Shown here piece by piece: positions 4,966 through 33,785 of a stretch of DNA of 64,000 nt (position 1 is its first letter; every line of letters begins with the position of its first letter). The notes beneath the pieces are model-generated. The model did no database searches. It saw only the letters and a list, made by a program, of their open reading frames with translations, and was not told where the DNA came from. The position numbers and the translations under genes are program-made. The stretch lies in the NCBI GenBank assembly GCA_947184155.2, contig CAMXCT020001680.1, forward strand, positions 519,001-583,000, read 5' to 3'. This DNA is from Cladocopium goreaui (Eukaryota > Sar > Dinophyceae > Suessiales > Symbiodiniaceae).

Positions 4966-7900
4966 GCAGTGGCAAAGTCTCGGAGTTTTCACCAGTTTTT
5001 TCAGAATTTTCAAGGCCTTGTTGCCCCGAAACCTTGAAGAAGTTGACGATTTTGGGTAGTCCATGGTGGTGTTCCAGTTTTGCGGTGAGCAACACTTTTT
5101 GTGGGCGATTGAACCTGTTTTTGATACCCTCAACAGTTTTTTCACACATGTTCGGTTGATTGTTAAGCATGTGTTTAAAGCTTTTTCTCTTTCCAATCAG
5201 GAACACCTTTTTGGATCCTCTGAAACATTTTTTTTCATACCAAGCTGGCTGTGTTGGAACATGGGCTATACCGTCTATACCCACAATTTAAGACAATTTT
5301 AATGGGGAAAATTATGATGAACCATCCAATTTTAGGCAGGTAAACCACTCTGAAAATTCAGACACTCCATCTCTTCAAATCCCACAAGTTTGATGGTCAA
5401 ACCGACCAATTTTTGTTGATTAACAACTCGTTTTGTTGGGAAAACGACATTTACTGTTAGTGAAATCATCATAAAAACCAACCACTAAAATTGCCGGTGA
5501 AATCATCCTTAAATTTTCTTGGTGAAAAATCACCATTTCAGGGTTGCTGAAAAACTGACCACGAAAACCTCGTTGAACTCGTCATGTTCATTGCTTTACC
5601 TCCGAGTTTTCCTGACAGGAGAGCTTGGTCTTCGGCCTGCATCGAGCTGGTCGCGTCTTGCTTGGAGATGAGATGGGCTTGGGGAAGACGCTACAGGTGC
5701 CCTGGCTGGGCCTCGGGGTGGGGCTGGACCTGTGGGGATCACTGGAAGATTTCGATGCTTTTTAAACATGGGAAATTTTCAGCCAGAAACTCTGATTGGT
5801 GGATGATTAAAAATATACTGAGCACATTTTGGTTAAGTCATGGTGATAAATCACCATCAAACGCAGCGATTTTTCATCAATTGGGGTACACAATGGGATG
5901 TTTGATGGCAAATAGTCTGGATAAACTGTAACGAGCTCACGAAAAGCGATTTCATTCTAATTTAGAACGCAAATGATGATTAGGATGGGGGAAAACTCTG
6001 CTAGAGTAGCCGAACTTGTCAGGTTGGTGAATTATCTTAATTGATCCGGATGGGTTCAGGTTAGAGCCTCAATATTGTTGCAGAATGTCTGTTTTCTTGC
6101 ATTCTCTTCACATGAGTTCTCCAACAATAGCAAGAATGCGTATCAATATCCAAAACCAACCACACATTGATCATTTTCCACTACCCTCTGGTAATTTAAC
6201 ATAACTATGGGAAATCACAATTTTTCATGGGAAAATCCACTATAAATGGCCATGTTCAATAGCTACGTTAAATTACCAGAGGGTACAATGTTCAATTCCC
6301 AGAGAATACCGTCTGAGTATGGGTCAGTCGTGGTCAAGTCATCTGGAAGGCGCCGCTGGATGGCATACCATTTGGTCCATTTGATGAGCACGATGTGTTC
6401 GGTTTCAAATAATGTTATATCTATTAATGAATCCATATTATTACATAATGTTATAGCTTTATGATATCTATATTAAATCTATGTGGTATCATGTTGTATC
6501 TATATATATAATATGTTATATATATATATATCTAATATAAGCTAATATATATAACACATATTTCATCCAAACCTGTGATGAGAATCCCAGTGCTTCACCC
6601 GAACAGTGATCCCGCGCGCGGCAAGGCACTGCTGTTGGCCGCTCAGTTTAAGGCGCCGATGGGACGCCTTGGGGACGCTGATGTTCCACACGGGACCAAA
6701 GGAGATCCAAAGCAAAAAAACACAGTGGAAATTAATCTGGACATATCATAATATATCATATATCATGATTATATCATGATTATATCATGTAGATATCATC
6801 ATATAGATATGCCATATATCATATATATATACATATATCATCTACATGCCTTTATGTGATCTTTAGCCACATGTGTTTCACATTCTACGCTTAACTTAAC
6901 TGGCTTTAGGACGAATGGCCCCTATTGGTGGTGGCGCCCTCATCCTTGCGCTTCGTGTGGCGGGACCAGGACGTTCCGGAAGCAGTTTGGGCTGGTTGGG
7001 CTGGTCGGGAAAGGGGTAAGAGTCTGAGATCTTCAAAATTGGGGTTTCGAGTTTAGGTGATGGGGCCTAGGTCCTGGATTTACCTTCTGCTCAGCTTCAA
7101 ATTTCGGAAATGCACAGACTGCACAGACGCTTGCTCGACTTGTGCACATTTGTGCACCCTTCGCATCCAAGTATAGTCTAGTATAGTATCGTATCGTATC
7201 GTATAGTATAGTAACAGTATAGTAACTATAATATAGATATATACTATACCATAAAGATCTACATTCTGTATAGTATATATCTACTCGTCGCAGCATATGG
7301 AGAGATGTGGAGAGTATCAGCCACCAGGCAGCACAGTGGCTACCCCACTGGGTTGGTGAAAACGGGCAAGACGTGCACGTTGTGAGGCCGTGAACTTCGT
7401 GGGAAACTTCACTTGGTCCACAGGTGGCATAATGTGCATGGACACAAGTACACTTGTATGGCAAGTGTGTGTGTGTGTATCTATATTAATATATGGGTAT
7501 ATATATATATATACATACATTTTGGATTATTTGAAGTCAATTGGTCATTTGAAGAAGAAACCAAGACAACTTCAGAATCTTTTTGAAGCACTGGCTGCCA
7601 GTGAAGCTGATCAGCTGATCCATTGCGGATCAATGTGGCCCATCCCCAAAGCGTGTAACACGACAGGAATAGCAAGGACAAGGTGCAGAAGTCGGCGAAG
7701 ATCGTAGCGACTTCCCCAAATGTGGAAGTGGGAGATGCGGTGTGAGACGCGGCTGCGGGTGGAAAAGGACCATGGTCATTTCATATAAGTTCTAATTCCA
7801 GGTTTTTCAGTGAATTCTTAGGTGATGGTGATGGAATTATGAGCTTTGACCACAAAAAAAAATAGGGATAGAGCCAGATCAGTCTGAAAAGAGAACTCGC

Positions 7901-16900: not shown

Positions 16901-19900
16901 TATATATGTATATATATATAGATGGTATACATATTACATATCATTATTTTTGTAAGCAGATGCCTTCAATAAGGCATCAATAAGGCATCAATAAGGCATC
17001 AATAAGGCATCAATCACCTACCAACCATCTCCGATCGCCAGGTCATCACCACCTGGTGTTAGATGCCCGGCGGCCGAATAGTGCGGACGGTGGCAGTGGT
17101 GGGAGATCCTGATATCCCTAGAGGTGCGATGCACTTTTGATGATCTAGATATACTATGATATATACCCTCTGGTTATTTAACATAGCCATGGAAAATCCA
17201 CCCATTTTTAATAGGTAAACCCAGGTAAACCATCTATAACTGGGCCATTTTCCATGGCTATGTTAAATAACCAGAGGGTAATATAGGGATGATAATGAAT
17301 GATGATTTAGTAATGAATGATATCCCTATAAATATATATCCCTAGAGATCGACGTGATGCACTGATGGGTTTTTCAGAGGTGAAGTTACTAATGGTAAAC
17401 AGTCAGAGCCGCTGTCTTTGGATAATATCACCATTCACCTCACCTTCAAAGTGTCATCATCATTTACCTGAAATATCCTGAGATGGCAATCACACATGGC
17501 AATGGGAAATCCGCTAAAAAATAGATGTTTTAATGGAAAAAATACCGAAAAAAATATCCAGAAACCTTTTGAGGCGCTGCAAGATAAGTTGCAGAAGCTG
17601 AAGACCGGCTTCATTCGTGGCTTGGAGATGGAAATTTCGTGGATCAAATTTGGGACATGGGGGATTTGAGCAGGAAAAGCGCGGAGCGAACCATTAATCA
17701 TTAAACATATAGGAATCTGGATTTTTTTGGGGAGGAGTGCGCCAGCTACATTGGGAAAGATATTTTTGGGGATCCTATCTTTCTTGACAAAGCCATATCA
17801 TCAATTTGCACATTTTCAGGATCTGACACGATCCCATTTTTGGCCCTTGGAGACAATATGAGGTTTCGGGGACTATCTTTCCCTAGCTGTGCTGTCGCTA
17901 TGTGAGATACAACCATCTCCCAAAGAAAGATGATGCCTGCAGTTGGACAATCCGTGTCTGGATTGGGACACAGATCTTGACCCCTGTTTTTGCAGTTGGT
18001 AGTACATAGTAGGTGCATATTAAAGTCTACACTCCACACTCCGCACTCTACAATCCAGACTCTAGAATCCACACTTTACACTGAACACTCCACACTCTAC
18101 ACTCCACACTCTTTACACTTCATACTCCACACTCCACACTTTACACTCCACACTTTACACTCCACACTCTACACTCCACACTACACACTCTACACTCTAC
18201 ACTCCACATTCTACACTGCACACTTTACACTTCACACTTTCCACTCCACACTTTACACTTTGCACTCCACACTCTACACTCCACAGTCTACACTCCACAC
18301 TCCGCACTTCAAAATCCACACTTTACACTTTACACTCCACACTCTACACTTTACACTCCACACTCCACACTTTACACTCCACACTCTACACTCCACACTC
18401 CACACTTTACACTCCACACTTTACACTGCACACTTTCCACTCCACACTTTACACTTTGCACTTTACACTCCAAACTCTGCGCTCCATCCACACTTTACAC
18501 TCCACACTTTACACTCCACACTCTACAATGCACACTTTACACTTTACACTTTACACTCCACACTGTACACTGTACACTTTACACTTTACACTCCACACTC
18601 TACACTCCACACTCCACACTCCACACTTTACACTTTACACTTTACACTCCACACTACACACTTTACACTCCACACTCTTCACCCTACACTCCACACTACA
18701 CTTTACACTCCGAACCCTACACTTTACACTCCACACTCCACACTTTACACTCCACACTCCACACTTTACTCTCCACACTTTACACTTTACTCTGTGCACT
18801 TTACACTCCCAACTCTACACTTTACTCTCCACACTTTACACTCCACACTCTACACTTTATACTGCACACTTTACACTCTAGACTGTACATTTTCCACTCC
18901 ACACTCCACACTCTACACTTTACACTCTACACTCTACACTCCACATTCTACACTGCACACTTTACACTCCACACTTTACACTTTACACTTTACACTCCAC
19001 ACTCTACACTCCACACTCTTTACACTTCACACGCTACACTTTACACTCCACACTCTACACTTTACACTTTACACTCCACACTTTACACTCCACACTCTAC
19101 ACTCCACACTACACACTCTACACTTTACACTCCACACTCCACACTTTAAACTCCACAACTTACACTCCACACTCCACACTTTACACTTTGCACTCCACAC
19201 TCTACACTCCATACTCTACACTCCACACTCCGCGCTTCACATTACACTCCACATTTTACACTTCGCACTTTACACTTTACGCTCCGCACTCTACACTCTA
19301 CACTCTACACTCTACATTCCACACTGTACACTCCACACTCCACAATTTCCACTTCACACTCTACACACCACATTCCCCACTCAACACTCCACTTTCTTCA
19401 CACCCAACACTCTGCACTCCACCCTCTTTCGGATTCCACAATGTACAGTGCACTGGTACGGTAACAGGGGAAAAATGCACAAAACCGTTCAAATCATGTG
19501 TTTCACAAAAGTGTTTGACGTGATTGCATTCGGGTTCCTGGGCTGCATCTTGTTTTTCCCGATTGAATGGCATTTTATGTGGACGTATCTGTAGTTTTTG
19601 CAGACGCCCATTGTGTTGTTGGTGGCACTTCCAGGTATCGATGGGCACACGTGAGGCACTGAGACGGTTGAACGGGCGAAGCTTGTTAAGGCTGATTTTT
19701 ATATGATTGTCCCAATAAATCATGAGAAATCTCCATTTATAGATGATTTTCCCACCTAGAAACTCTAGAAACCTCCATTATTAGGTGATCCCAGCTACAA
19801 ACTTCCGTGTCGTTGGAAATTTCCCATTATGATAGTTGATTCCCGGAAGGTAAATATGGTCGTTTCATCCCTGTTTTAAGTTGGTCTCCAATTGGTTCAA

Positions 19901-22900
19901 GATTCCAAAGCAGACCCTTATGCCTAGGGGTAAAAACCAGGGTTTCCTGTAACTGTAAAGTTTCCCTTAAACGCATCCACTGACATTCTTGCTATCCCAC
20001 ATTTGCTTAACACAGACCCACATATCATCCAAATATCGTATTGTTGCGGATACATGCGGATACTGTATCCCATGACGCCTCCATGATATCCGGGAATTTT
20101 GCTGGGTTTTCCAAGGACACCTGCGGCGAGACCAGCTTTGGTGTCCAAATTTCAAGAGGAGTCATTGCCAGCTGGAAGTTTGGTGTTTGAAGTACTATGG
20201 GATCCACCTGAACTCATGGAAATTTCCATGGATTTCGCCAGTAAATCAAGGTGATTTTATCCGATTTGCTTGGATTCGATTGGATTTTGGGTTTCTGCAA
20301 TTCTTGGAGATCTCTTTGTTGGCGGTGAAAGGAGACGGGGAATACGTGACGGTGATCCAGTCGCAAGTATCATCTCAGAAAACCATAGAAAACCAACATT
20401 GGACCAATGGAGATGCGACCAAGAAATTAATGAAAGCTTGGTGAAAGGTGGCTAGGCGAACGAACAGTTAGAAACCAACAGTTGTAAGAATTGACAAGAC
20501 GTTAAAAAACACATCTAATTTTTTAACAGCTAGAAGCCAGTGCCAGGGCATTTGGGTATTTCATTTGCATTTGGTGCTTTCACTGTGGCCCTGGCATGCC
20601 AAAAGCTCCTATTATTACGGTGCTACTTAAGGCCATCAGGAAGTTATCAGCCGTATGGAAAGTTCCAGCCGAGATGCCCTTGCAAATGCCTGGGTCTTCA
20701 TTTCAAGTGGTGCAAGTATTTAATGCCATCAGAGGTTATCAGCCGTATGGAAAGTCCTAGCCAAGATGCCCTTGCAAGCCTTGCCATCAAGGTGCAGTTA
20801 TCATTTTTTTTACTCAGGTTGACTACTACCATTTAGACATTAAATATCTTGAGCCTATAGGAACATTATATATTATATATTATATATTATATATTATATA
20901 TTAGTTCTGCCTCATGATTTCTGTCACCTGTCACCTGTCATATAGCCTCGTGATTTCAATCTCTGTCACCTGTCAAGTATCCGTTCCCTGTCCCCTGAGC
21001 TGTCAGTTTCCCGTAGACGATTTTTTTCGTTTTCGCAGAAAACTGTGACAGAAGACTGTGACACCCAAGGTTTGCACCTGAGAACAAGCAAGGCGCAAAA
21101 AATTCCACTAGACAGAAGACAGTTGGCTGAGAAGAAGACTGTCAGATGTAGCCCGAAACCTGCGCAAGAAAATGGTTCATCATCGAAGGAACAAAAAACA
21201 ACATGACACTAGGAGCTGTGAGGTTTACAGCAACTTTATTTCCAACTAGGAGCTCCAAGAAAATGCTGCTGCAGCTTTACACTTTGTTTCCAGCAACTCA
21301 CTGCAAGTCTTGCTCCACTTCAATGCCATTCTGTCGCATGACGACACATTCTGCATCATCTTCGACATCTGCTGCATCATGATGTGAACCATCTGTTTGA
21401 ACAATGCGGATTGGTCGCGGAGCGGTCTGCCGAAAAGGGTTCAGGTTGACAGGGACAGGTGACTGTGACTGATATGCACTTTGCTGCAAAAATGAATACT
21501 GCGCTGGATGCGGTTCTCGTCTCAATGTCCCAGTGATCCATCCAGTCAAGAAGGCGTGGGCCTTCTGGCTGATAGCTTGCCTCAGTCAACTGTCAGTTCT
21601 CTCTAAAAAAATCTGTCAACTGTCAACTGTCAGTTATTCTTTTTGTGACAAAGAAAAAAAACAAGACAAAACAAGTTCAAGATGCTTTGCAAATGCAGCA
21701 TCTGCCTTCACTTTCACTTCATTGCGAATCTTCCAAGCTACATGCCTCCGAGGGTGCTCTCCAGAAGGCTGCCATGTGAGCCGTGAAATAAGCCCTGGCA
21801 AGGACTCTGCTCGGATTGCCACCTCTGCTTGAAAGGGCTTTGGTGAAGACTCAAACATATGACATAACAGCAGAATGTCTTCTGGATGGCCTGGGGCAAA
21901 TTCATATTGAAGGCTGTCTAAGTCTTTCATTGACAGCATTTTTCGCTTCAAGATCCTGAAGAGGTGTGGAGCCTTGGGGCCTGTCAGGCCAGTCAGGGTG
22001 ACTGGTATCTCTTCCAGCCACTTGTCCCACTCTGGGCTTGAATCGTGCTTCCATGCTTTCCGGAAGTAGCAAGATGTTTCCAATGAAGCATCATCCAAAA
22101 AACGTTGATACACCTCGACCAATTCCTGGGCCGTCTCAAAAGTTTCATGACTGCATCTTGTCACTGCCTGGCCACCCACTGCGTCCAAGCATGTGTGGGT
22201 GTGCCCTTTTATCGGAAAACCGATATTGCAAGTGTCAATGACACCCAGTGCAGTCAATTTCAACCAGAAGCGAAGCATCTTTGAGTTTTTGTTGTCCCGA
22301 GCGGTGTTGTCTAATAACAGAAATACCTGTCGGGGTATCCCTGTGATGTCATGCACCCACGACAAACACCTCGCCAGTGCATCCACATGGTTGCAGGTGT
22401 CTTTGCAAACATCGGGGTCTCCCACTGACAGGCTGAAGCCATGACCATGAACCCAAATAAGTTGTACATGGCAAGCTGGGCGAATAAGTTCATCAAATGT
22501 TTTGGACTTGACATGAGCCCTGGGAACTTTATGTTTGGCTTGGTCCAAGCCGTCTGACCTGATGACAAGGACAGATGACGGATGACTTCGAACATTGGAT
22601 GAGACACTCAATGCTCTTGTTTCAAAAGCCAATGCTGTCCATGCACTGTCAGCAGCTCTGTCACGCCAGTTCTGCAAGAGGTGCTCCGCGTATTCCTGGA
22701 TGAGTCTGTTCCGCAAATGAAGGGCCTTCACCCTTTTCAGCTCACGTTTGAACCAAGCGCATTGGTCACAAACTGCATGTTGCCCTGAGGATTTTCGAAA
22801 AGCCAAAAACTGTTTGGATCCTTGAAGCGCACGTCGGAAAGTGGTAAAAGATGGTGCTTTCTTTCCGGCATAATTCTCCTTGTGCCACCGTAACATCATC

Positions 22901-25900
22901 TCAAACAAGATCTGGGGCTTCACCACGCCAAGCCATCTGCGCGGGGCTGCTCCAGCTCCTGGGCCTGTCAGTGAATTGTTGAAAGGGGTGTCTGTGAGTA
23001 GCTGCCTGAGAGACAAAGTTGCCAGCTTCCGTGCATCCTGCTCATCCCATTGAGCCTGTGACATGCTTGAAGCTGAATCCGAAGATCCATAAACTTGGCC
23101 GAAGATCCACTCTTCTCGCTCAGCTGTTTCAATGAGATTCTCTTTGTCTTCGTGGGCTGCTGCTTGATCAGTCGCCAACGCAGCCACGTCTGGAAGCATG
23201 GTGACATTCCAAGCCATAGGCCATTGCTTGATGCACATCTTGATCTGTCCGTCAAGGGCCTAGATTCAAATAACTCAGAGATTCTACAAGTCCAATGGAT
23301 ACAAAGAACAAACCTTGATGCGAGCAAGTGGCATCACCTTTGAGCACTGCATCCTTGACATTCTCAAAGTCAGTGGACTTCAGGTCAGCGGAGCAGCAGT
23401 CTGCAATGCCACGGGTCCATGATGTAACAACAAAGCAGTAGGTCCACAACTGATCAACAGTGACCTTGGAAGATCCATCGTGGTTGGAAAGGGTGTCCTC
23501 CTGGATGCTAATGATCTTGTCCATGATCAGGTTGTGATCTTCTGGTGATAATTCTCCACCAAACTCCAACTGCTTTGACCTTGGATGATTTTGGAATGAA
23601 CAACAATATATGAAAGTGAATAATCACTACCAACAAATGAATAAATAAACGCTATATATATATATTAAATATAAATATTTAAAAATGTATATATATATAA
23701 ACACATGTATATACATATACATATATATATACATATTTATATATATATACATATTATATATATATACACTATATTAGATATACATATATAAAACTATTTT
23801 TTGAGTAAAAGCACATCAGCCGGGGGGGGCACCAACTTGGCGGCAGCAGCGGCGCCTGCTCTGCGAGCATACTCTTCCGCTTCGGATGGGAACATTCCAT
23901 CAGCTGGCATTGATGTTGGCCACAAATGTTTCCAGGACAATACAGACTCATTGACAGATGACTCCGAGAAGAATGACAGATGACACTGCAAAGCACGATA
24001 GCTTTCGAACGTGCAGTAATTCAACATATGCTTGATTGCCGTCTGCTTTGCGGTGCCGATCTTGATCTCACGATCCTTCACAGCCAACTCTGGGTTTGAG
24101 TCTTGCTTTCCACTGTCCTGTGTCCTCTTGACACGTCGTCTCTTCACGGCCTTTGAAAACTTGAAGCTGAAAACTTGAAGCTGAAAACTTGAAGACTGAT
24201 AGTAATTTTCCTTTTGGTTTGGGATTTTTACTGGTGACTTTTTGTCCTGTTTTTGGAACCCTTTTTGGGCACAAAAAGTCGCCCTTCTTAACCCCTTTCG
24301 CGCAGCCAAACCAAATTACAAAAAACTGAGATGACTTTTCTGAAAAAACAAGAAGAAAGTAAAGCAGCTGAATGCTCTTCAAGGCACCTGTTTCTGTCCA
24401 ACTACAATGCCCTCAGCATTCACCTTGCTGTCGAAGCCACACAGCAAGCTCTCGAAAGTTTTTACCAACCGCTTGCCAACCTCCTTTCTGGCCAAACGGT
24501 TCTCAAAACTCAGCAGCTGCTGGACATCCCCATCAGGGTATGCAGCGACAAGCACCAAGTCACACCATTGAATGCAGCTCAGAGGTTTGATCATACTGCC
24601 TTTGACATTCTGGCGGAATGCCTGCTGAATCAAAGAATCATTGGTGGATGCCGTGCCTTCCCATAGGGTGGGAACCTTCAAGAGGGTCTTGAAAATCTGC
24701 AAGGCTGTGTGATCCGTGCCCAGCTTTCCCTGCTCAATTTCAGATCTCATCAGACACCACCTCAGGTCAAAGTGACATTACAACAAACATACATGAAGCC
24801 TAGTGGCACAAGTTTGCAAGCCAATGCTCGTTTGACTCCATCACCAAGCCGACAAGATCCCAATTCTCCAAGGCTGGATGGCAAATCCCTTGAGACAATG
24901 GTTTCTTCTGCCCTGAACCCTGAAGTGATGATTGAGTTGGCGGTGCCGATGATGTTGGCTGCTTCACAGCTTGAGCCACTCCTGATTGCTAGATGCACAC
25001 AATACTGTCATATTGTCATCTGTCATATTGTCAAAACTTCACACTGACATATTGTCATCTGTCCATGACTGTCTGAAGATTATCTGCAGCTGGGAAGCCA
25101 TAAGGATGATGCGTCCCATCGAAACATGTGCGGCATGGAACTAGACACCATGCCCTCCGAACAGCTTTTCAAAGTGTGGTCCACTGACTCGCTTGCAAAC
25201 TGAGATGCTGCTTCATCATCCTGAGATGTGCGAATAATTCACACCAAAACTCACACTGACTGACTGACTTTAAGGCGCATGAAAGCCTACATGTCTCCAA
25301 GAATCTTCCCCACTCAAAGCCTTGAACATGCTGGCAATCTCTGCCTTCACGTCCTCAACCGCACTTGGCAAAGTCAAGCCTGCGATCTTCGTAGCCAAGA
25401 GCTCCCTGGTGGTCGTGCACTCCTGTGCAGGGAAGCACTTGAAAGTGAAATTGAAGTTGAAATAAACTTGAAACATGGTAGGGCAGCACTCCTGGTACAA
25501 GACTTTCACATGGTTGTGCAAGGAGACTTGCCACAATTCAGGGGCCACCACAAACTCATTCGTGATGGCCGACATGGCGATGGACAAATCAAGACAGGTG
25601 ACCGTCTTGAGAGGTGGTGGCAATGGCAATTAGTGACATGACATGTCAGATCTTGACAAATGACAGTTGATACTTCATACCACTGAGGGCACCCACTGCA
25701 GGCTTGCTCGTTCGACCTGAGTTCACAAGGCTGTTGCAACTAGTTGCAACCTGTCTATTTCTGGGAATCTGAAGTTAACCTGAAAAATAGACAGGTAACT
25801 CTGAGTTGCCGGTGGTCTGGAGGGTTACATCAATTCATTTTCAGGCATGTTATCTCCAAAATAAATTGACTTGACCCCCAACCTGAGTTCACAAGGCTGT

Positions 25901-28113
25901 TGCAACTAGTTGCAACCTGTCTATTTCTGGGAATCTGAAGTTAACCTGAAAAATAGACAGGTAACTCTGAGTTGCCGGTGGTCTGGAGGGTTACATCAAT
26001 TCATTTTCAGGCATGTTATCTCCAAAATAAATTGACTTGACCCCCAACCTGAGTTCACAAGGCTGTTGCAACTAGTTGCAACCTGTCTATTTCTGGGAAT
26101 CTGAAGTTAACCTGAAAAATAGACAGGCAACTCTGAGTTGCCGGTGGTCATGGAGGGTTACATCAATTCATTTTCAGGCATGTTATCTCAAAAATATATT
26201 GACTTGACCCCCCATGACACCAGGCAACTCTGAGTTGCCTGTCTAAATCTTTGGATGACAGCCCAACCCCAAAAATAGACAGGTTGCCTGGACCTTGCCC
26301 AAATATATACTACATGTCTGAGGCAACTCCCAGTTGCCGGGGATCTGGAAACTTTCACTTTGAAACAAGCTTCATTTCTGAGGCAACTCCCAGTTACCGA
26401 GGATCTAGGACAGACACACACACACACACACACTCCAAAACATGCCCATTTCTGAGGCAACTCCCAGTTACCGAGGATGGGGACACAAAACATGCCCATA
26501 TCTTAGGCAACTCCCAGTTGCCGAGGATCTGGGACACAAAACATGCCCATTTCTTAGGCAACTCCCAGTTACCGAGGATCTGGGATTTGGGAAAACCAAG
26601 GAGTAACCGAGGATCTGGGATTTGGGGTAACCGAGGATCTGGGATTTGAGGGGATCTGGGACACAAAACATGCCCATATCTTAGGCAACTCCCAGTTACC
26701 GAGGATCTGGGACACAAAACATGCCCATAGTTACCGAGGATCTGGGATCTGGGAAAACCAAGGAGTAACCGAGGATCTGGGATTTGGGGTAACCGAGGAT
26801 CTGGGATTTGAGGGGATCTGGGACACAAAACATGCCCATATCTTAGGCAACTCCCAGTTACCGAGGATCTGGGACACAAAACATGCCCATAGTTACCGAG
26901 GATCTGGGATCTGGGAAAACCAAGGAGTAACCGAGGATCTGGGATTTGGGGTAACCGAGGATCTGGGATTTGAGGGGATCTGGGACACAAAACATGCCCA
27001 TATCTTAGGCAACTCCCAGTTACCGAGGATCTGGGACACAAAACATGCTCATAGTTACCGAGGATCTGGGATTTGGAGTAACCGAGGATCTGGGATTTGG
27101 GAAAACCGAGGAGTAACCGAGGATCTGGGACACAAAACATGCCCATAGTTACCGAGGATCTGGGATTTGGGAAAACCGAGGAGTAACCGAGGATCTGGGA
27201 TTTGGGAAAACCGAGGAGTAACCGAGGATCTGGGATTTGGGGTAACCGAGGATGTGGGATTTGGGGTAACCGAGGATCTGGGATTTGGGCTAACCGAGGA
27301 TCTGGGTTTTGGGGCAACCGAGGACTTGGGATTTTGACACACACTTCAACTTCAAACATGCCCATTCCTGAGGCAACTCCCAGTTACCGAGGATCTGGGA
27401 TTTGGGGCAACCAAGGATCTGGGATTTGGGGTAACCGAGGATCTGGGATTTGGGGTAACCGAGGATCTGGGATTTGGGTCAACCGAGGATCTGGGATTTG
27501 GGCCAACCGAAGATCTGGGATTTGGGAGCAACCGTAGTTGTCAAAGATCTCTTGAAGAATTAATGTTCTGCAACACTTTGTCTCCAAGATCTCTAGTTTT
27601 TCAAATATTGGCATTTATGTTGTTTGAGAACTAGTGCTGCAGAACATTACTTCCCAGTCAGTTACACGACAAGTGACTTAAACGACAAGTAACTTAAACT
27701 TTCAAAGTTGGACACCTGTCATGTCAAGAACTTTCTCAATAATCAGCAGCCAGGTTCAGGAACAGGCAGTACTGAACAAGCTAAGTGATTCCCTTAGAAG
27801 TCAGTGCCAGAAAATTGGGGTAATAGTTTAAAAGTGAAGCTGTTACTAACCCATCTTTCAATTGGTAGTAAAAGACACAAAATCATAGGACTGGATGGTT
27901 TTTCAACACCCATCACTGAAGGTCTCGACACAGAGTAAAGTTGTGTATGTAAATATATGTATGTATACAATATCTAGATTCAATGACGTGGGGCTTCCCA
28001 AGGATGACTTGGGACTCATGCGTCTGGACATATTGTATAATCATCCAACCCCTTCTGCAACGCGCTTTGTAAGAATCCCATCTTCTATCTATCTATCTCT
28101 CTATCTATCTATC

Positions 28114-28144
<31 letters not shown>

Positions 28145-28180
28145 CTATCTATCTGTTTGGCTATCTATCTATCTATCTAC

Positions 28181-28213
<33 letters not shown>

Positions 28214-31200
28214 CATCTATCTATCTATCTATCTATCTAGCTCCTTTAAAATCTAAAAGTTACATCAAATTTGGGCATTTTCATTGCCAATCTATCTATC
28301 TACCTATCTGTCTATCTATCTACCTATCTGTCTCTCTATCAATGTAATACCTTTCTTTCTTTCTATTGATCTATCTTTCAATCTATTTATCTAATATCGT
28401 GCTTTCTTCCTTCCTTTCATTCTTCCTTCCTTTATTTTCTTCTTTCTTGCTGTCTATCTATCTATCGTTGTAAATTTCCTCTTGGTTTGGGTTTTGCAAA
28501 AAAAACTCAAGTCTGTGAGAACCGATTTCTTTCTTGTGTTTGGGCTTCCAACTTTGGCACTCCCAAGGCAATTTGGACAACTCTTTGCAGTTGAAATCTA
28601 TATATTTTTGTATGACAGCAATAGGTCCGCAATGTTTCTATGGTTTGACTTCCGTTTGTATGGTTTGTCTTTCTCACTCCCAGGAATTACCCAGCAGTTT
28701 TTGGACTACCACCCAAGGTCCCCAGTGCAGCTACAGGTCAATCATTTGAATCACAAGATCTGGCTCAGACTTGTTTTCAAAGCCCGCGCAAATGCAAATG
28801 TCAATTGTCAAACATAACTACCTGCAACTTCATTGTCTGGTTGTCCCTCGTGATCACTCCGAACTTGAACTCATCTGGGAACAACGGGGTGATCACCGTC
28901 AGCCTTCCCTGAGCCTGGTCTTCGAAAACCCCTGTGCCCAATGCCAATCGCATCCGTTCCGCGAAAGCAGCGTCTGAGCTCAGTGGTGTGATCCTGAAAC
29001 AAGACTCAAAGTGCATCAATTTTTTGTTGGAACTTAGACTCAAACATCTACAAAGTTTGAATTTAATTTCAACTCAGGCTCGTCTCCAACTGCACATCCT
29101 CAGGTTTGAAGGAAGGAAACCACTGGTTCATCTCATCACTGCTCATCAATGGACTCTTCCACATCTTCATGAATGGCTTCTGTGACCGCGACATTGGGTG
29201 CGACATTGGGACAGATGACAGGTGACAGGTGACAGATGACAGGTGACAAATGGCCTATATAGATCTTCTCAATGGCTGCGTGGCAAATTCAAATGCAACA
29301 TCCAAAAGCATTCATAAACAAAACATCCAACATCTCAAACATCCAAAACATCAAATGACAGTGACAAACTTGGCATCGGAATCAAAGCTGCTGGGTCACG
29401 TGACCATAATGCATTAACCTAAGTTCAGAGCAGGCCACTGACACAAAACAGATTCAGAATGGTCATGGGAAGGTTGAAACTGCATGAATTTGACTTGTAA
29501 TTTTCTTCTTGGGGGGGGATGGCACTTTTTTCCCATGAGGGGGATGTTAAATTTAAAAGGGCATCCTCTCTGGGCATTGCTGAGCCAGCTACGTCGCATG
29601 AGGATGGCTGATTCTCCTGTGAAGCCATCCTAGCAGTGGCTTGGCCAACAAATATGGTGAAGTGATGGCATCACTGTCTATCATTTTTTGTGGCATTGTG
29701 ACATGAATTCATAAAAACAAATGCTTTGCTGAAGTAACATTCTGTGGTATCGTTTGGTTTCTTATTGTAAATGCCCACAGCTGCATCCCCTCAGACTGAA
29801 ATGACAATCACTTCCTTTTTTCCAAATGGTGCGCTGGCCTTGCCCAAAGAAGTCTGCATCACCAATGGCAGGGCCAACATAGCAGGCCAAAAAGCAGGAA
29901 TCAGGAGATGGCTTTCCTTTTAAACATTTTAGGTTACAGTGAGTGGCTTTCCACTGACATAGAATATAGGTTGGCTGTCAGTGGGACGCACTAGTGGATG
30001 ACAGGTGACAGGTGAGTTTCTAATGTAACAAGTTGTGGCAGTAAGTGACAGGCGACTTTCCATTAGTATCATGTGGACTAACATTGACTGATGGTTTGCC
30101 ATTAAGAAGTAGTAGGTGCAAAAGGTAGCAGGTGAAGCAATTACAGGTGATCATTGGAACAGTTTGAAGTGACTTTCCATGATTAAAGTTTTCCTGAAAC
30201 CATTGTATTTGTTTCAAATGCTGCATCAAAAAGAACTATCAAGAGACTTGTTGAATTTCACAACAAACTATCTTAATGCATCATTTGCCTTCTGGCCAAT
30301 ATAAAATATGACAAGTTGACAGGTAAACCACGTGCTTGACTTTGAGTTTGTGAAGTTCATGCCACATGTTGAAAGTCTGATGTTAAAAAAGGGAGGAAGA
30401 TGTGTGGGCAAAAAACAGAAGCATGTGTGAATGCAAGTGTGAATTTGCTAGGTTGCGCATACATGTCCATTGTACCGGAAATCAAATTCAATACCTTCAT
30501 GTCACTTCCTACTTCTTCTTGTGGCTGTTTTGGGGTATGGAGACTTAAAAACATACACATATAAATATATATTTGCATATTCAGCATTGATATCTATATA
30601 TATATGTATATTTATATTTTCATATAAATATAATATATCATATATATATATTTATATATATTATAAATTATATCATATATATATACATATATATATATAT
30701 ATTTATTTTATATCATGTATATACATATATATTATACATATTTATATTATTATATTTACATAAATATAACTATTTTTCCATATATATATACATATATATA
30801 TATTTATTTTTTTATATGTATAACTATATATTGTGTGTACTGACAGGGAAACAATAGGTGGTAGGTGACTTGGTATAATACTTGTGTGTGGGGAATGCCA
30901 GAACTATTTACGTTGCCATACACATTTGTTAGGTAGTAAGTACATTCAAAAGCCTCTATATTGTAGATATCTTTTGCATAGTCCTTGTGTAGAGCTTACC
31001 ATCCATGGTAGAAATCTTTACATGGTCCTTGCACAAAGCTTGCCATCTTACCATCCAATCCATGGTAGAGTTCTTTTTTTTTTAACCAGAGTCCTTGCAT
31101 AGAGCAAATCCATTGTAGAGATCTTTTGCAGAGTCCTAGTGTAGAGCTTACCATCCATGGTAGAAATCTTTACATGGTCCTTGCACAAAGCTTGCCATCT

Positions 31201-33785
31201 TACCATCCAATCCATGGTAGAGTTTTTTTTTTACCAGAGTCCTTGCATAGAGCAAATCCATTGTAGAGATCTTTTGCAGAATCCTTGCATAGAGCTTTCC
31301 ATACGTCACTTTAACCTCTGATGGCATTAAATACTTGCACCACTTGAAATGAAGACCCAGTCTGGTATTTGCAAGGGCATCTCGGCTGGAACTTTCCATA
31401 CGGCTGATAACTTCCTGATGGCCGAAGTAGCACCGTAATAATAGGAGCTTTTGGCATGCCAGGGCCACAGTGAAAGCACCAAATGCAAATGAAATACCCA
31501 AATGCCCTGGCACTGGCTTCTAGGTAATTTTGCGATGGCGATCCAGTTGTTTTCCTCCAGCTGGCCCCCAGCTGGCGCTGCTGAACTTGCCAGGACGAGA
31601 CTATCCGTGTGGCCGTGTTGAGCATCACAGCTGCTGGAACGGGCTTGACCCTGACGGTCAGGGTCTTGGAGATGGACGCAGTTTTGGCCGCACAATCGTG
31701 GATGTCCATTGATATGAAGCAATATGTCTCTAAAATTCTTTGAACATATTAATGCTCTACAGATATTTTGTACACATACTTCTACTACACATGTTCATAC
31801 CCAGAAGATCCATGTATGGTATATATGCTAACATTTGGGGTATATTGATGGTAAATGTTACCATATATAGCAGCACCATGGATCCTATGGGATATGGATA
31901 TATTGCGATTCAGAAACTTTCCCCGATTCAGAAACTCCGATTCAGAAACTCCAAGGATTCAAGAAACTCCTGGTTGTCCCGATTCAGAAACTCCTGGTTG
32001 TCCCTGCCAAGGCGGCACAGACCATTGTCTTCGCGGAATTGTATTGGGTTCCTCCGCTCAGATGGTGGTTCTGAAAGCCACGACAGGATGGATGGGTAGC
32101 GAACAGCAAGCAATGACCTGGCAACAGATTTCAGCACGTAGAAAAATATGGGGATGGGTCAAAAGCCTGGTACCTAGTGAACCCCAAAATAGCTGGTAAA
32201 TGGATGTTCATCCCACTAAAAATGTATCTATAGGTATTGACCCATACCCATATCCATTTATCCATTGAATGATCATAGAAAAACAGTACTAAAAACTGTT
32301 GTTCCCATTTGACATGTGAAAAAACTCGATGGCCAGGTTCGACTCCCGTTCGAACGTACTTTTTTCACCATGGGGAAGGATCAACCAGGGTTCTAAACAT
32401 CGAAAATTTGGGCGCCGAGAGATTGGGGCCCCCCATGAAATGAACATCATAAGCTGAACCACGACGTCGCTATGATTTTCATATATTTTCATGATTGTGG
32501 CTTTGGCGCAAATCTCAACTCATGGATACTCGGAAAGTTGGGTGCCCAACCTCATAGCTGGCCATACATCCCAGGTTTAAGGATGGCTATTGCAAGAGAC
32601 CCCCCTCGATTTAAATGGTTAAACACCACGATTTCCAAGGTGTTTTTGGGTGATTGCTATAATCCTAGAATTCGTTCAAGGGAACATCTACAATAGCCGC
32701 TGTAGATTTCTTGCAAATCCATATGAAGTCATTGTTTTAAATGGTTTTAATACGTAGTACGACGTATGTCTTAATCCTCCTTTTCGCTGGCCTAGACTCC
32801 TCCATTTCTGTGGCTTAAACCAGGTTCCGGGACAGATCCAGCAAGCAGAGGATCGCGCGCATCGCATTGGACAGCGCGACAGCGTCACGGTGCAGAAAGG
32901 GACTGGTTGGGGATCACCATGGGAATCAGCAATTCATTGGAGAATAGGACATCAATATCCAATCAACTGGGTTTATATAACCAAATATATATATATATAT
33001 ATATCCATCATATTTTTAGTTGTTGATTTATATAACCAAAAAAAATATTGATCTGCGTTGCTTCTGTAAAGTTATACTATGTTATACAATAGTATAAATA
33101 TTATTGGATTTACGCTACGGGATCATATCATAGTTTCCGAACATTTCCATGGAATTTCCACAAACCAAGTTGGAGTGATTGGAAATCATGGGATTTTTTA
33201 AGACCAATAGTTTTTGTGTTTTTTGTTGCTGGGAAAGAACTAACATATCCCAGTAATTGATAGATTACATAACTACAACCATGTCTTTCGCTGGGGGGAT
33301 AACTTCAATGGAGACACAACAGTGAACAGTGGGTAGGAAAAATGAGCAGTTAAGTTGATGAATGTAAGTAGTGCATATGGTATATTAATGTATATGATAG
33401 TGGGGAAATATTAGACATCGTGTGGAAACATGGCCATGGAAAAATTGCCATTTACAAGCATGTTGCATGGTGATTCTTGACGTTCATCCCTAGCTTCAAC
33501 AAGTGAATTCTATAGCATCCCAAGTTGTGATGATTCAAATACAGTACCCTCTGGTAATTTAACATAGCTATTGAAAATGGCCATTTATAGTTGATTTACC
33601 CATTGAACATGGTGATTTTCCATGGTTATGTTAGTTTACCAGAGGGTACTACTTTACGAGGACCTTCCATGTTAAAAAAATGTAGGTCAACATCATCAAC
33701 ATCCCAACTTCGGTTGCAGGTGCACTATTTGATTGCCAAGAAAACCTTGGATGAAGTGCTATTCCAGACTCTGGAAAAGAAGACC
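4939..33785 (+). CDS. SNF2-family ATPase, SMARCAL1/ZRANB3-like annealing helicase (multi-exon gene, overall span)
   Basis: Consecutive + strand exons encode a SNF2/DEAD-like ATPase core in the right order. Lobe 1: LPYQK; Walker A (GDEMGLGKT); [31 protein letters not shown]. Linker: [12 protein letters not shown] and [18 protein letters not shown]. Lobe 2: [51 protein letters not shown]. The 'EWPLLVVxPSSLRF', '[10 protein letters not shown]' and 'VFAELYW' signatures are those of SMARCAL1/ZRANB3 proteins. In animals these reanneal RPA-coated single strands and remodel stalled forks; nuclear action here is inferred from the family. No HARP domain or zinc finger was identified, so which subtype is open. 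Splice phases match across most joins and several donors are GC. One stretch after IDG was not found. Introns contain family A, B and C elements, a 1.4-kb satellite and the 11-kb transposon. Confidence 0.85.
5619..5696 (+). CDS. Helicase exon: Walker A
   Basis: After cctgacag the frame reads [19 protein letters not shown] then [16 protein letters not shown] is the nucleotide-binding motif I of SNF2 ATPases. 78 bp, phase 0 at both ends, donor gtgccc. Confidence 0.92.
6182..6285. mobile_element. Family A short TIR element
   Basis: TACCCTCTGGTAATTTAACAT at the left, complementary CGTTAAATTACCAGAGGGTA at the right, core aaatcacaatttttcatggg and actataaatggcca. About 104 bp; TA at both ends may be the target duplication. 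Confidence 0.88.
6626..6652 (+). CDS. Helicase micro-exon: ALLLAAQFK
   Basis: 27 bp between ggcaag and a GC donor (gcgccg). ALLLAAQFK fits exactly between GKTLQ and DEWPLL, as in 'LQAIxLAAxF' of the family. Phase 0 on both sides. Confidence 0.75.
6910..7015 (+). CDS. Helicase exon: motif Ia ([15 protein letters not shown])
   Basis: After ggctttag the frame reads [20 protein letters not shown], very close to SMARCAL1/ZRANB3. The open frame runs on to a gtaag donor at 7016. The true donor may be earlier, after WRDQ, because the tail ([12 protein letters not shown]) has no clear family match. Confidence 0.85.
7572..7601 (+). CDS. Possible helicase exon with WLP motif
   Basis: One frame reads LKHWLPV, resembling the 'xxWLP' that follows 'RFxWxxQ' in the family. 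Phase with the neighbours is not resolved and boundaries are approximate. Confidence 0.35.
7683..7739 (+). CDS. Helicase exon: [19 protein letters not shown]
   Basis: 19 codons between acaag and a gtgtga donor. The position and phase (0/0) lead straight into VVTYDLLRR, as expected for the segment between motifs Ia and II. Confidence 0.6.
8017..8074 (+). CDS. Helicase exon: [15 protein letters not shown]
   Basis: Matches the 'xIVSYDLLxxL' stretch of the family upstream of motif II. Acceptor cctgag, donor gttcct. It leaves phase 1, completed by the first two bases of the next exon. Confidence 0.8.
8743..8763. mobile_element. Family A left end fragment
   Basis: taccctctggtgaattcacag is only the left TIR; no matching right end was seen nearby. 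Confidence 0.4.
8913..8959 (+). CDS. Helicase exon: motif II (DESQSIK)
   Basis: Reads [16 protein letters not shown] across the junction. DESQ is the Walker B box (DESH in animal homologues). GC donor (gctttc). Phase agrees with the previous exon. Confidence 0.88.
9171..9221 (+). CDS. Helicase exon between motifs II and III
   Basis: After agctccag the frame reads [17 protein letters not shown], then a GC donor. It resembles 'xxRTKAVxxLxxxA' preceding 'RxxLLSGTP'. Phase 0/0. Confidence 0.7.
9571..9595 (+). CDS. Helicase exon: motif III start (AARRVLLLS)
   Basis: 25 bp encoding AARRVLLL plus the first base of a Ser codon, with a GC donor (gcccgg). The next exon begins gtggtacacct, completing S-G-T-P. 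This split of LLLSGTP explains the apparent 'LLLSPG' of the unspliced frame. Confidence 0.78.
9839..9888 (+). CDS. Helicase exon: [14 protein letters not shown]
   Basis: After ggctaag, [16 protein letters not shown] continues motif III and matches 'SGTPAxSRPxELYxQ'. The end before a GC donor is inferred; the frame stops soon after. Confidence 0.8.
10377..10513 (+). CDS. Helicase exon: [17 protein letters not shown]
   Basis: Core frame [25 protein letters not shown] matches the 'xxxPxxFPxxxxFxxRYC' segment after motif III. The acceptor (ttacag at 10371-10376) and donor are the nearest plausible ones. The first 17 codons have no family support, so the exon may start nearer 10425. Confidence 0.65.
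10866..10933 (+). CDS. Helicase exon: [11 protein letters not shown]
   Basis: Frame [22 protein letters not shown] matches the conserved 'W..xG..xxxEL' of SMARCAL1-like proteins. It leaves phase 1 before gtccgg, and the next exon completes a Cys codon. Confidence 0.75.
11145..11306. mobile_element. Chimeric family A (left) / family B (right) element
   Basis: Left half: taccctctggttatgactaac and the atggcccatagaaatagatgg core. It switches at ttttccatttcatatatgg to the right half of family B (cttcccaactgactttcata, tttttcagaggggttg, accaccaaccag). It has no matching TIR pair. Confidence 0.7.
11610..12000. repeat. About 390-bp TATA/ATTATA tract
   Basis: Almost pure A/T with many self-complementary stretches. 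It lies in the helicase intron before the [10 protein letters not shown] exon. Confidence 0.88.
12418..12469 (+). CDS. Helicase exon: [12 protein letters not shown]
   Basis: [18 protein letters not shown] is the signature linker of this SNF2 subfamily. Acceptor cgtcacag, donor gtcggt. The final Gln codon is completed by the next exon. Confidence 0.9.
12741..12795 (+). CDS. Helicase exon: [18 protein letters not shown]
   Basis: Directly continues 'DVLxxLPPKxR'. Acceptor gcacgag. The donor is probably gatgga (GA) or lies close by. The phase fits the preceding exon. Confidence 0.85.
12875..12961. mobile_element. Family A element with internal deletion
   Basis: Left end taccctccagtaaactaacat, family core aaatcactatttttaatggg, right end accagagtgta. 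The agctatgttaaatt part of the right TIR is missing. Confidence 0.72.
13154..13189 (+). CDS. Possible helicase linker exon ([12 protein letters not shown])
   Basis: 36 bp, acceptor tgccag, donor gtgacc, phase 0/0. It encodes a short charged helix fitting the variable region between LPPKRR and LFRMTAE. No motif confirms it. Confidence 0.45.
13481..13576. mobile_element. Family C short TIR element
   Basis: atgggtatggatcaatacct, gatgaacatccatttaccag, gatgttcaccaggggtac. It shares order and words with 40119-40226 and, inverted, with 32150-32251. Confidence 0.65.
13703..13740 (+). CDS. Possible helicase linker exon
   Basis: 38 bp between gatccag and a consensus-like gtaagg donor, reading [12 protein letters not shown] in the expected phase. 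It is supported only by splice signals and position. Confidence 0.35.
13803..13903. mobile_element. Family B short TIR element
   Basis: ctgcttggtggtttcaaacat, then attttccatatatgggat, cccaactgacgaagtcat, tttttcagaggggtaggt, ataccaccag. Confidence 0.75.
14541..14591 (+). CDS. Helicase exon: LFRMTAE
   Basis: [16 protein letters not shown] matches the 'LFxxTAxAK' element at the start of lobe 2. Donor gtggtg. The AKLEAVLEY exon follows in phase. The acceptor is uncertain (cgcgag at about 14533 or gggag at about 14550). Confidence 0.78.
15312..15415. mobile_element. Family A short TIR element
   Basis: Intact left and right TIRs with the 'tggaaaatcaccatttttaa' core and 'tataaatggccattttcaat'. Confidence 0.9.
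15557..15671. mobile_element. Diverged family A element
   Basis: Left end degenerate (tacccgttaccggtaatgac). The rest, ctaacatagctattgaacat through aaccagagggta, is typical. A poly-T interrupts the right arm. It lies only about 140 bp from the previous copy. Confidence 0.7.
16242..16268 (+). CDS. Helicase micro-exon: AKLEAVLEY
   Basis: 27 bp after tcaag. AKLEAVLEY follows TAE and precedes VAHLL, as in 'TAxAKxPAVxEYVxxLL'. Phase 0/0, donor gtgggg. Confidence 0.78.
16557..16599 (+). CDS. Helicase exon: [14 protein letters not shown] (motif IV)
   Basis: After gccgag reads [14 protein letters not shown], equivalent to 'ESGxKFLVFAHH'. It leaves phase 1 before gtcgga. Confidence 0.85.
16965..17013. 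repeat. 11-bp tandem repeat (AATAAGGCATC)
   Basis: Four clean copies plus partials, immediately upstream of the HHHLVLD micro-exon. Confidence 0.85.
17042..17064 (+). CDS. Helicase micro-exon: GHHHLVLD
   Basis: 23 bp after gccag. With the previous base it reads GHHHLVLD, matching 'AHHxxVLDA'. GC donor (gcccgg). Confidence 0.75.
17164..17280. mobile_element. Family A short TIR element, subfamily 2
   Basis: taccctctggttatttaaca left and tgttaaataaccagagggta right, perfect inverted ends of about 29 bp including ctatggaaaat / attttccatgg. Confidence 0.9.
17574..17616 (+). CDS. Helicase exon: [15 protein letters not shown]
   Basis: [14 protein letters not shown] plus one base of Arg. Matches 'xLxxxLxxxxxxxIRIDG'. 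Acceptor tttgag, donor gtggct. Confidence 0.82.
17990..19440. repeat. Heptamer satellite, about 1.45 kb (CACTCCA/CACTTTA/CACTCTA)
   Basis: About 200 degenerate copies of a 7-bp unit with fixed ACACT and a variable YY/TT/CT step. The 534-codon open frame through it is a by-product: a 7-bp unit reads as a repeating 7-residue peptide (TLHTPHS-like) with no stops. It sits in a helicase intron. It is not the dinoflagellate telomere repeat. Confidence 0.9.
19635..19650 (+). CDS. Helicase micro-exon: RIDGHT (motif V start)
   Basis: After ttccag, gt completes the Arg codon of the previous exon and ATCGATGGG gives IDG, the conserved IDG of lobe 2. It is followed by cacac and gtgagg, which is read here as donor. 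Downstream bases could encode REALRRLNG but only in a shifted frame. Confidence 0.65.
20530..20737 (+). repeat. Left terminal inverted repeat of the 11-kb element
   Basis: Begins CTAGAAGCCAGTGCC. It contains gttatcagccgtatggaaagt, which recurs just inside at about 20735. Pairs with 31313-31523 in inverse orientation. Confidence 0.88.
21298..21483 (-). CDS. Last exon of the transposon gene
   Basis: After tttttgcag (minus strand) the frame reads [19 protein letters not shown], continues through an acidic segment ([13 protein letters not shown]) and ends VEQDLQ-stop. It follows the main exon after an intron of roughly 185 bp. No domain. Confidence 0.5.
   Translation of the reverse strand, partial: QSAYQSQSPVPVNLNPFRQTAPRPIRIVQTDGSHHDAADVEDDAECVVMRQNGIEVEQDLQ
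21298..29628 (-). CDS. Transposon-encoded DUF7869-like/DDE-type protein, multi-exon gene (overall span)
   Basis: Minus-strand open segments with protein-like composition run from a possible start Met at 29626-29628 ([19 protein letters not shown]) to a stop at 21298-21300. They are separated by introns with GT donors and AG acceptors. The largest exon holds the recognisable domain. It is the only clear minus-strand coding in the window and lies entirely inside the inverted repeats, so it is probably the element's own gene. Function as a transposase is inferred from the D-D-D arrangement and the location. Some intermediate exon boundaries are tentative and further exons may be missed between 25630 and 28820. 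Confidence 0.65.
21669..23259 (-). CDS. Main exon: DUF7869-like / DDE-fold domain
   Basis: Acceptor ttgaatctag, then [13 protein letters not shown]. In the 534-residue frame (counted from Met at 23238) I see CDQC (157-160, a possible zinc site), RSDGLDQAK (Asp 229/232), [15 protein letters not shown] (Asp 310) and [13 protein letters not shown] (Asp 352). This D...LDN..xNKN...GHTHxxxD pattern is that of DUF7869 proteins, common in dinoflagellate and fungal genomes, and resembles an RNase H-fold DDE catalytic triad. The frame stays open to 21634, but a gt inside HLEL|VLS at about 21669 is a plausible donor to the last exon. The frame has no internal stop, so the copy may be young. Confidence 0.75.
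23338..23569 (-). CDS. Exon of transposon gene ([16 protein letters not shown]...)
   Basis: Acceptor aaagcag and donor gtgatgcc, 78 bp from the main exon. It encodes [20 protein letters not shown], a [14 protein letters not shown] segment and [10 protein letters not shown]. Protein-like, no named domain. The short clean intron to the main exon supports the model. Confidence 0.65.
23815..24117 (-). CDS. Exon of transposon gene ([15 protein letters not shown]...)
   Basis: Acceptor acacag, donor gtgctt. Encodes [20 protein letters not shown], a hydrophilic helical region, and ends [18 protein letters not shown]. No domain recognised. Confidence 0.6.
24400..24765 (-). CDS. Exon of transposon gene ([17 protein letters not shown]...)
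   Basis: Open frame with protein-like content: [52 protein letters not shown]. Acceptor gacctgag. The 3' boundary is approximate, near 24400. Confidence 0.55.
24800..24992 (-). CDS. Exon of transposon gene ([16 protein letters not shown]...)
   Basis: Open minus-strand frame [20 protein letters not shown] continuing to [18 protein letters not shown]. Another frame is also open, so frame and ends are tentative. Confidence 0.4.
25290..25610 (-). CDS. One or two exons of transposon gene
   Basis: Two protein-like stretches, [20 protein letters not shown] and [20 protein letters not shown], flank a low-complexity FNFNFTFK segment that is probably a short intron (25440-25475). No domain. Confidence 0.45.
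25715..26212. repeat. Three tandem 166-bp units with internal hairpins
   Basis: Starts at 25715, 25881 and 26047, nearly identical. Each has the palindrome gttgcaactagttgcaac and an inverted pair CCTGTCTATTT / AAATAGACAGG about 30 bp apart. It lies in an intron-like part of the 11-kb element. Confidence 0.9.
26220..27535. repeat. Minisatellite of GTAACCGAGGATCTGGGATTTGG and related units
   Basis: Mixed units: taaccgaggatctgggattt (about 24 bp) and a longer unit ggcaactcccagttaccgag plus gacacaaaacatgcccat. Larger blocks of about 150 bp are themselves repeated (for example 26610-26760, 26765-26900, 26905-27040). The 323-codon minus-strand frame (PQIPDPRL repeats) is a consequence of the unit length. 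Confidence 0.88.
27541..28823. other. Non-coding part of the 11-kb element with TCTA microsatellite
   Basis: No exon assigned. 28079-28240 and 28290-28470 carry TATC repeats with TTTC interruptions. Flanking DNA is intron-like. Confidence 0.5.
28824..29000 (-). CDS. Exon of transposon gene ([17 protein letters not shown]...)
   Basis: Minus-strand frame [20 protein letters not shown] then [20 protein letters not shown] and [16 protein letters not shown], before a gtagtt donor. Strong protein-like composition, no domain named. Confidence 0.6.
29500..29628 (-). CDS. Possible first exon of transposon gene
   Basis: The first Met at 29628 reads [20 protein letters not shown], then [19 protein letters not shown]. 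The exon end is not defined. It is the most upstream plausible coding segment on this strand within the element. Confidence 0.4.
29640..30960. other. Non-coding right part of the 11-kb element
   Basis: No exon assigned. Contains TGACAGGTGA-type words (about 29995-30060) and a long AT tract with TATA repeats (30560-30830). Confidence 0.5.
30961..31305. repeat. About 150-bp tandem units next to the right inverted repeat
   Basis: Units start at 30961, 31113 and 31261 (ttgtagagatcttttgcaga...). The full units contain tagagcttaccatccatggt and a poly-T step. The third is truncated by the inverted repeat. Confidence 0.82.
31313..31523 (-). repeat. Right terminal inverted repeat of the 11-kb element
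   Basis: Reverse complement of the left arm. It ends GGCACTGGCTTCTAG at 31523. Differences from the left arm include cgg/aagg near 31427 and a 4-bp insertion near 31358. Confidence 0.88.
31594..31656 (+). CDS. Helicase exon: [16 protein letters not shown] (motif V)
   Basis: After ttgccag reads [21 protein letters not shown]. It matches '[15 protein letters not shown]' of SMARCAL1 proteins almost exactly. Donor gtcagg, phase 0/0. It starts 70 bp past the transposon end. Confidence 0.92.
32012..32047 (+). CDS. Helicase exon: [12 protein letters not shown]
   Basis: 12 codons between gccaag and donor gttcct. VFAELYW is diagnostic of the SMARCAL1/ZRANB3 group. Phase 0/0. Confidence 0.92.
32150..32251. 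mobile_element. Family C short TIR element (inverse orientation)
   Basis: ggggatgggtcaaaagcctg, cctagtgaaccccaaaatag, ggatgttcatcccactaaaa, taggtattgacccatacccа-type end; inverse of the 40119 copy. It lies between the VFAELYW and motif VI exons. Confidence 0.7.
32824..32889 (+). CDS. Helicase exon: [11 protein letters not shown] (motif VI)
   Basis: [22 protein letters not shown] after aaccag, donor gtgcag. Contains the arginine-finger motif VI. Confidence 0.95.
33545..33648. mobile_element. Family A short TIR element
   Basis: taccctctggtaatttaaca left and ttagtttaccagagggta right. It lies in the intron just before the last recognised helicase exon, in the opposite internal orientation to 6182. 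Confidence 0.9.
33720..33785 (+). CDS. Helicase exon: [15 protein letters not shown]
   Basis: [22 protein letters not shown], corresponding to 'xxYLxAxxTxDDxLWxxxxxK', the end of the ATPase core. Acceptor gttgcag, donor gtgagc. The C-terminal remainder of the protein lies downstream and is not identified with confidence. Confidence 0.9.

Follow-up and report, generated by a model that had tools for sequence, protein, structure and literature searches.

Large, intron-containing DNA transposons with two genes and arrays of a short subterminal motif are exemplified by the CACTA/EnSpm group. A second described system, Sola1-1_Ec32 of Ectocarpus, is presented as a large element with terminal inverted repeats (TIRs), in which the transposase gene is accompanied by an opposite-strand gene for a ParB-like, N4/N6 DNA methyltransferase protein (PMC12477816). 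A C(2)C motif between the second and third acidic residues is given as the defining feature of CACTA/EnSpm and its relatives (CMC, Transib) (PMC12730594), and a C/DxxH motif between the second aspartate and the last acidic residue as that of hAT, MuDR, P, Kolobok and Dada (PMC10045372). In the account of the improved Cladocopium goreaui genome, novel Symbiodiniaceae-specific repeats stay unclassified because identified repeats from dinoflagellates are lacking (PMC9412976). Here, we analyze a 64-kb stretch of C. goreaui DNA (contig CAMXCT020001680.1, positions 519,001 to 583,000; hereafter, the window), which very probably harbors an ~11-kb DDE/D cut-and-paste DNA transposon that encodes its transposase as a DUF7869 protein and that entered an intron of a SMARCAL1-like helicase gene in the recent past. 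The Pfam entry PF25273 DUF7869 gives no function, and our literature search met neither DUF7869 nor PF25273, nor IPR057191, which we take to be the accession for the same domain.

The element is bounded by two arms (Table 1) that align in inverted orientation with 96.7% identity over 213 columns (blastn, E 1.5e-99). They are built from the inverted-repeat segments I1, I3 and I8, and their outermost 99 nt are 100% complementary. The original prediction of an ~11-kb transposon with near-identical inverted TIRs of ~210 bp is thus borne out, and the few differences between the arms suggest a young insertion. The termini read CTAGAAGCC...GGCTTCTAG, with the palindrome CTAG at both outer edges; because this palindrome merges with the TIR, a target duplication and the outermost TIR bases are indistinguishable from one copy. 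An empty helicase-intron site reading AACAGCTAGGTAATT would signify a duplication (CTAG or TA), and one reading AACAGGTAATT would signify none. Neither a 16-mer search allowing up to 3 mismatches nor blastn of the arm (lowest E elsewhere 1.3) revealed a further copy of these ends in the window, and viral contigs scanned with the protein cluster P0001 (introduced below), a TIR 21-mer and the profiles A1 and A3 yielded no relative.

All recognizable coding in the element lies on the minus strand, as predicted, with the plus-strand frames tested in part. The element contains an open frame of 541 codons from stop to stop (21637-23259, minus); it contains the motifs CDQC, SDG, LLLDN and GHTHTCLD that had been named for an uninterrupted frame, although the length of 534 codons given for that frame did not stand. 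The encoded protein is a direct member of PF25273 (E 6.6e-15, 55.6 bits versus the curated cut-off of 26). The gene is indeed split by introns: the spliced model has six exons, five introns and 958 codons with no internal stop, with P0030 as the guide for the 5′ exons, P0005 as that for the 3′ exon, and boundaries placed by us. AG|G acceptors, which like GC donors are typical of dinoflagellates, occur in all five introns, a pattern that is partly by construction because we placed the boundaries; one donor is GC.

In the predicted structure, the DUF7869 core shows the RNase H order and places D176, D257 and D299 (model 1, exon 5) at the catalytic positions, so that the anticipated RNase H fold with its three named aspartates is recovered at the level of the model. 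These aspartates are invariant or near-invariant, with 41 residues between the second and the third. The best structural neighbors of the core include Tc1/mariner transposases (Mos1, Metnase), at 7-11% identity in the VIA-align rows, and retroviral integrases; no conclusion was drawn from families missing in the VIA-align lists. Sequence searches against solved structures returned nothing for the 541-residue frame (E <= 1) or the A1 profile (E <= 10).

The profile search recovered at least 45 protein clusters representing at least 760 member sequences (46 and 761 when P0030 is included), with P0001 alone accounting for 186 of them. These counts are lower bounds because both searches scored only the best 7997 candidates; among the 45 clusters, P0036 belongs to the window itself, and several are fragmentary sequences that have no precomputed match to DUF7869. 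The relatives include one named Symbiodinium protein (P0024). The expectation that DUF7869 proteins are numerous therefore holds in the protein data searched.

Comparison with these clusters indicates that exon 5 probably joins two genes. Its start matches P0030, and hence an upstream gene (gene A), with 89% identity over 55 residues up to 23095, and its remainder matches P0001, the DUF7869 gene (gene B), with 98.8% identity from P0001 residue 104, beginning at 23085; GGATCTTCGG stands on both sides of this junction. P0031 extends gene A past P0030 (86% over 64 common residues). Since P0001 residues 1-103 and the whole of P0031 have no window match at E <= 1e-3, this copy has apparently lost the last part of A together with the first part of B. 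As read from these alignments, an internal deletion has probably fused the two genes in frame. The original prediction overlooked this probable fusion with an upstream gene and, with it, that the DUF7869 protein here is without its usual N-terminus. By eye, P0029, P0026, P0043 and P0044 have a cysteine-rich N-terminal region before the DUF7869 part (P0029 and P0026 align from residues 127 and 16 onward, respectively, at 28% identity), and the fused protein is devoid of this likely DNA-binding portion of B. P0036, 100% identical across the junction, represents 7 member sequences; because it bears the mark of proteins encoded by the window itself, it could be this very locus. P0046 has a different gap at the junction position, a pattern that recurrent internal deletions would be expected to produce. 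No informative match to the gene A relatives P0030 and P0031 came from Pfam, PHROGs or NCBIfam. By eye, VHMVDLHAHVGDHCLA in P0031, within the continuation of gene A that is absent from the window, resembles methyltransferase motif I; P0031 has no match at E <= 10 in Pfam or among solved structures.

The element features a recurrent hexamer, CTGTCA/TGACAG, with 38 occurrences versus 23 in the 53 kb outside it; when the element was shuffled 300 times (first order), the hexamer occurred 8.3 times on average and at most 21 times. Outside the exons, its orientation is split between the halves of the element, with 13 plus and 2 minus in the left half and 2 plus and 12 minus in the right half. At the motif level this split has p 1.5e-4 outside exons and 0.002 for both halves with exons, values inflated by tandem copies; with the heptad arrays taken as single units, the split by orientation is 3 versus 2, p = 0.1. 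Because tandem heptads make up much of the signal and the arrays are only 3 versus 2, we treat them as a hint, not proof, of binding-site arrays.

A transposition cycle can be proposed along the following lines. The DUF7869 protein would bind the element ends, perhaps via the TIRs and the CTGTCAN arrays, and would cut with two metal ions held by D176, D257 and D299, after which it would join the ends to a new site, with CTAG or TA as the probable target. Intact members would carry adjacent genes A and B, with the B product combining an N-terminal cysteine-rich domain with DUF7869, and in the window copy an internal deletion would have removed the adjoining portions of the two genes, the last part of A and the first part of B, and left an in-frame fusion.

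A second lineage was recovered by tblastn from genome contigs, in which 8 of 51 pattern-matched stretches were confirmed as loci (L001-L008), all from one metagenome-assembled genome named uncultured Trichormus. Because a retrotransposon-type integrase adjoins the element in L003 (PF17921 E 2.1e-23, PF00665 E 7.3e-10), we take these contigs as eukaryotic contamination, with Azolla, the usual host of the cyanobiont, as the presumable source. The uncultured Trichormus record in the GTDB-based collection, in other words, holds apparently eukaryotic transposon contigs. Pfam DUF7869 is present in all eight loci at E < 1e-50 (in L008, in the downstream frame), and seven have uninterrupted frames of 873-924 codons, L008 being frameshifted. 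Among six loci (without the more divergent L005 and the frameshifted L008), dN/dS was 0.06-0.13 in 14 of the 15 pairs, with dS near saturation in most; the pair L004-L001 gave no dS estimate. L008, unlike the other loci, has both ends present: inverted repeats of 34 bp with 94% identity span 6044 bp around DUF7869. By eye, we found no target duplication there at several offsets. The predicted arrangement of a DUF7869 gene flanked by inverted repeats is thus met again in an unrelated lineage with a different TIR sequence. The right ends of seven loci are alignable: those of L002, L003 and L007 match the L008 terminal sequence (E 7e-8 to 2e-5), those of L001 and L006 do so weakly (E 0.25), and L004 and L005 were not matched by the same search. 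A profile comparison between the two lineages over 220 columns, with a probability of 98.2 and E 6e-14, placed all three aspartates in register. BLASTP of P0029, which is without most of the core, against the L003 protein gave nothing significant, and the link between the lineages therefore rests on tblastn, Pfam and the profile comparison.

Where a locus extends for more than ~600 bp beyond the start of its DUF7869 frame (L003, L004, L006, L007 and L008, 5/8), a divergent gene with the methyltransferase-like motif DIPYG is present in that upstream DNA. Part of this gene in L008 matches PF01555 DNA methylase above the cut-off (E 4.7e-7), and the same stretch has weak DNA methyltransferase matches in PHROGs (best E 0.0012) and NCBIfam (0.0029). 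A ParB-like stretch in the partner gene was seen by eye only; its Pfam matches include no ParB family, only DUF6551 in L004 (E 0.076), and solved structures gave nothing for the L003 partner gene (E <= 1). Between the divergent genes lie inverted-repeat clusters (L003 3499-3696, L004 3484-3586, L006 2495-3291, L007 2595-2985), which share the hairpin core GTCGATGC...GCATCGAC in L003, L004 and L006 and are possible binding sites for the partner protein.

It is an evenly balanced question whether the element belongs to the Sola superfamily, with DUF7869 being Pfam's name for the Sola1-type transposase core, a reading that would refine the identification as a DUF7869 transposon. Sola elements make a 4-bp target duplication, which the CTAG at the ends of the window element would fit. 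DUF7869 may be a Sola1-type transposase because in the L-loci the genes for the transposase and a DNA methyltransferase face each other, as described for Sola1-1_Ec32 (PMC12477816). Sola1 is also listed for the moss Physcomitrella (PMC9033089), and the Sola1 average of 5445 bp among curated bivalve elements (PMC10294476) is near the 6044 bp of L008. Against this, no methyltransferase domain was detected in the five window frames scanned, and L008 appears by eye without a 4-bp duplication. The window element further differs from Sola1 in its upstream gene, its five model introns and its CTGTCAN arrays. On balance, Sola1 membership is plausible from the gene layout of the L-loci and the CTAG ends, the comparison being one of layout rather than of transposase sequence.

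The CACTA/EnSpm elements are similar to the window element in the general features outlined at the outset, but the ends of the latter read CTAGAAGCC and not CACTA, and no Pfam match to a CACTA/EnSpm transposase was found at E <= 1. By eye, the stretch between D257 and D299 has neither the CxxC of CACTA/EnSpm, CMC and Transib (CDQC precedes the first aspartate) nor the [CD]xxH of hAT, MuDR, P, Kolobok and Dada. Tc1/mariner, despite the shared fold, is set apart by the low identity, the 41-residue spacing, the 11-kb size and the long TIRs. The KDZ transposase profile (presumably its Pfam name) was absent at E <= 1 for 26 members, a threshold that remote relatives could escape. The motifs examined do not favor placing the element in the CACTA or C/DxxH groups; the original suggestion of an unnamed superfamily is doubtful in view of the likeness of the L-locus layout to Sola1 as described in PMC12477816. 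A bolder alternative is that DUF7869 defines a eukaryotic DDD transposon superfamily separate from Sola and all named groups, ranging from dinoflagellates to land plants, and that its dinoflagellate members are giant two-gene elements with introns, with opposed CTGTCAN arrays bound by a dedicated element protein and repeated deletions fusing both genes into chimeras; we regard this full scenario as rather unlikely.

Much less probable still is that the DUF7869 gene is a cargo of host or foreign origin, captured by an unrelated TIR element (e.g., a MULE or CACTA) and moved by a transposase encoded elsewhere. Giant elements carrying only genes without transposase homology have been reported (PMC12477816), and the window holds just one copy; but a transposase fold and triad are predicted for the core itself, the five window frames scanned contained no other recognized transposase domain, and L008 has a different TIR sequence around the same core. 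That the arms are an independent inverted duplication around a resident DUF7869 family gene, as might be entertained since CTAG does not prove a target duplication and the window has no other arm copy, is the least credible option, for the arms enclose, symmetrically from CTAG to CTAG, DNA that lies within the helicase-gene intron, and a comparable layout with other arms recurs in the L008 relative.

The favored identification as a transposon gives a testable job, that of a transposase core, to a domain that Pfam lists without function and that is common among the public proteins searched. With the ends and gene structure of a full element in hand, unclassified Symbiodiniaceae repeats of this kind could be named and removed from gene sets, and a young intronic copy with an open reading frame is a usable start for activity tests.

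The nesting in a helicase intron that had been proposed is also supported. Segments of a SMARCAL1/HARP-like SNF2-helicase occur on the plus strand, opposite to the element gene, on both flanks and in the expected gene order: EMGLGKTLQ at 5.67 kb and others at 6.91, 9.84, 12.42 and ~19.63 kb to the left, and 31.59 kb, VFAELYWVP at 32.01 kb, 32.83 kb and near 33.7 kb to the right. They were selected among tblastn hits reported at a permissive threshold (E as high as 50); two (6910-6960 and 32827-32922) have E < 1e-3, the one at ~19.63 kb was read by eye, and the remainder were credited by order. With the nearest segments at ~19.63 and 31.59 kb, the element takes up the greater part of one intron. 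The ~19.63-kb segment is out of frame as translated, which makes the host gene model approximate: IDGHT and REALRRLN at 19630-19680 are in two different plus frames, for which a frameshift, a small intron or an error are candidates.

Table 1. Features of the DUF7869 element, in window coordinates.
Feature	Position	Strand	Basis or remark
Left TIR, ~209 bp	20530..20738	+	First bases CTAGAAGCCAGTGCCAGGGC; alignment and blastn
CTAG, left edge	20530..20533	.	4-bp (CTAG) or 2-bp (TA) target duplication, or outermost TIR bases
Left subterminal CTGTCAN heptad arrays (20921, 20963, 21613)	20921..21633	+	Motif count
Exon 6, DUF7869 C-terminal part, stop TGA, GC-AG intron ahead	21298..21580	-	P0005 homology, spliced model
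Exon 5, gene A end (to ~23095) probably fused in frame to predicted DUF7869 transposase core (from ~23085)	21686..23259	-	Homology, model
Probable fusion junction, P0030-like to P0001-like; GGATCTTCGG occurs twice	23078..23108	-	Homology
Exon 4, upstream gene A	23348..23579	-	P0030 homology, model
Exon 3, upstream gene A; donor ambiguous (GG, or GC one base on)	23822..24150	-	Homology, model
Exon 2, upstream gene A	24388..24760	-	Homology, model
Exon 1, upstream gene A, ATG	25490..25575	-	Homology, model
Right subterminal NTGACAG heptad arrays (29215, 29998), opposite orientation	29215..30011	-	Motif count
Right TIR, ~212 bp	31312..31523	-	Alignment and blastn
CTAG, right edge	31520..31523	.	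4-bp or 2-bp (TA) duplication, or outermost TIR bases

Three further features of the window were observed. First, the element contains a minisatellite block (25715-27571) upstream of the transposon gene, with spacings of 24, 35, 162 and 166 bp. Second, a long tandem-repeat frame (17981-19594) reiterating a 12-residue unit lies directly upstream of the element, within the helicase gene. Third, a frame at 54536-54865 with KQSSTARSTTEAELIACAGALLGET resembles, by eye, the RNase H end of a Copia-type retrotransposon.
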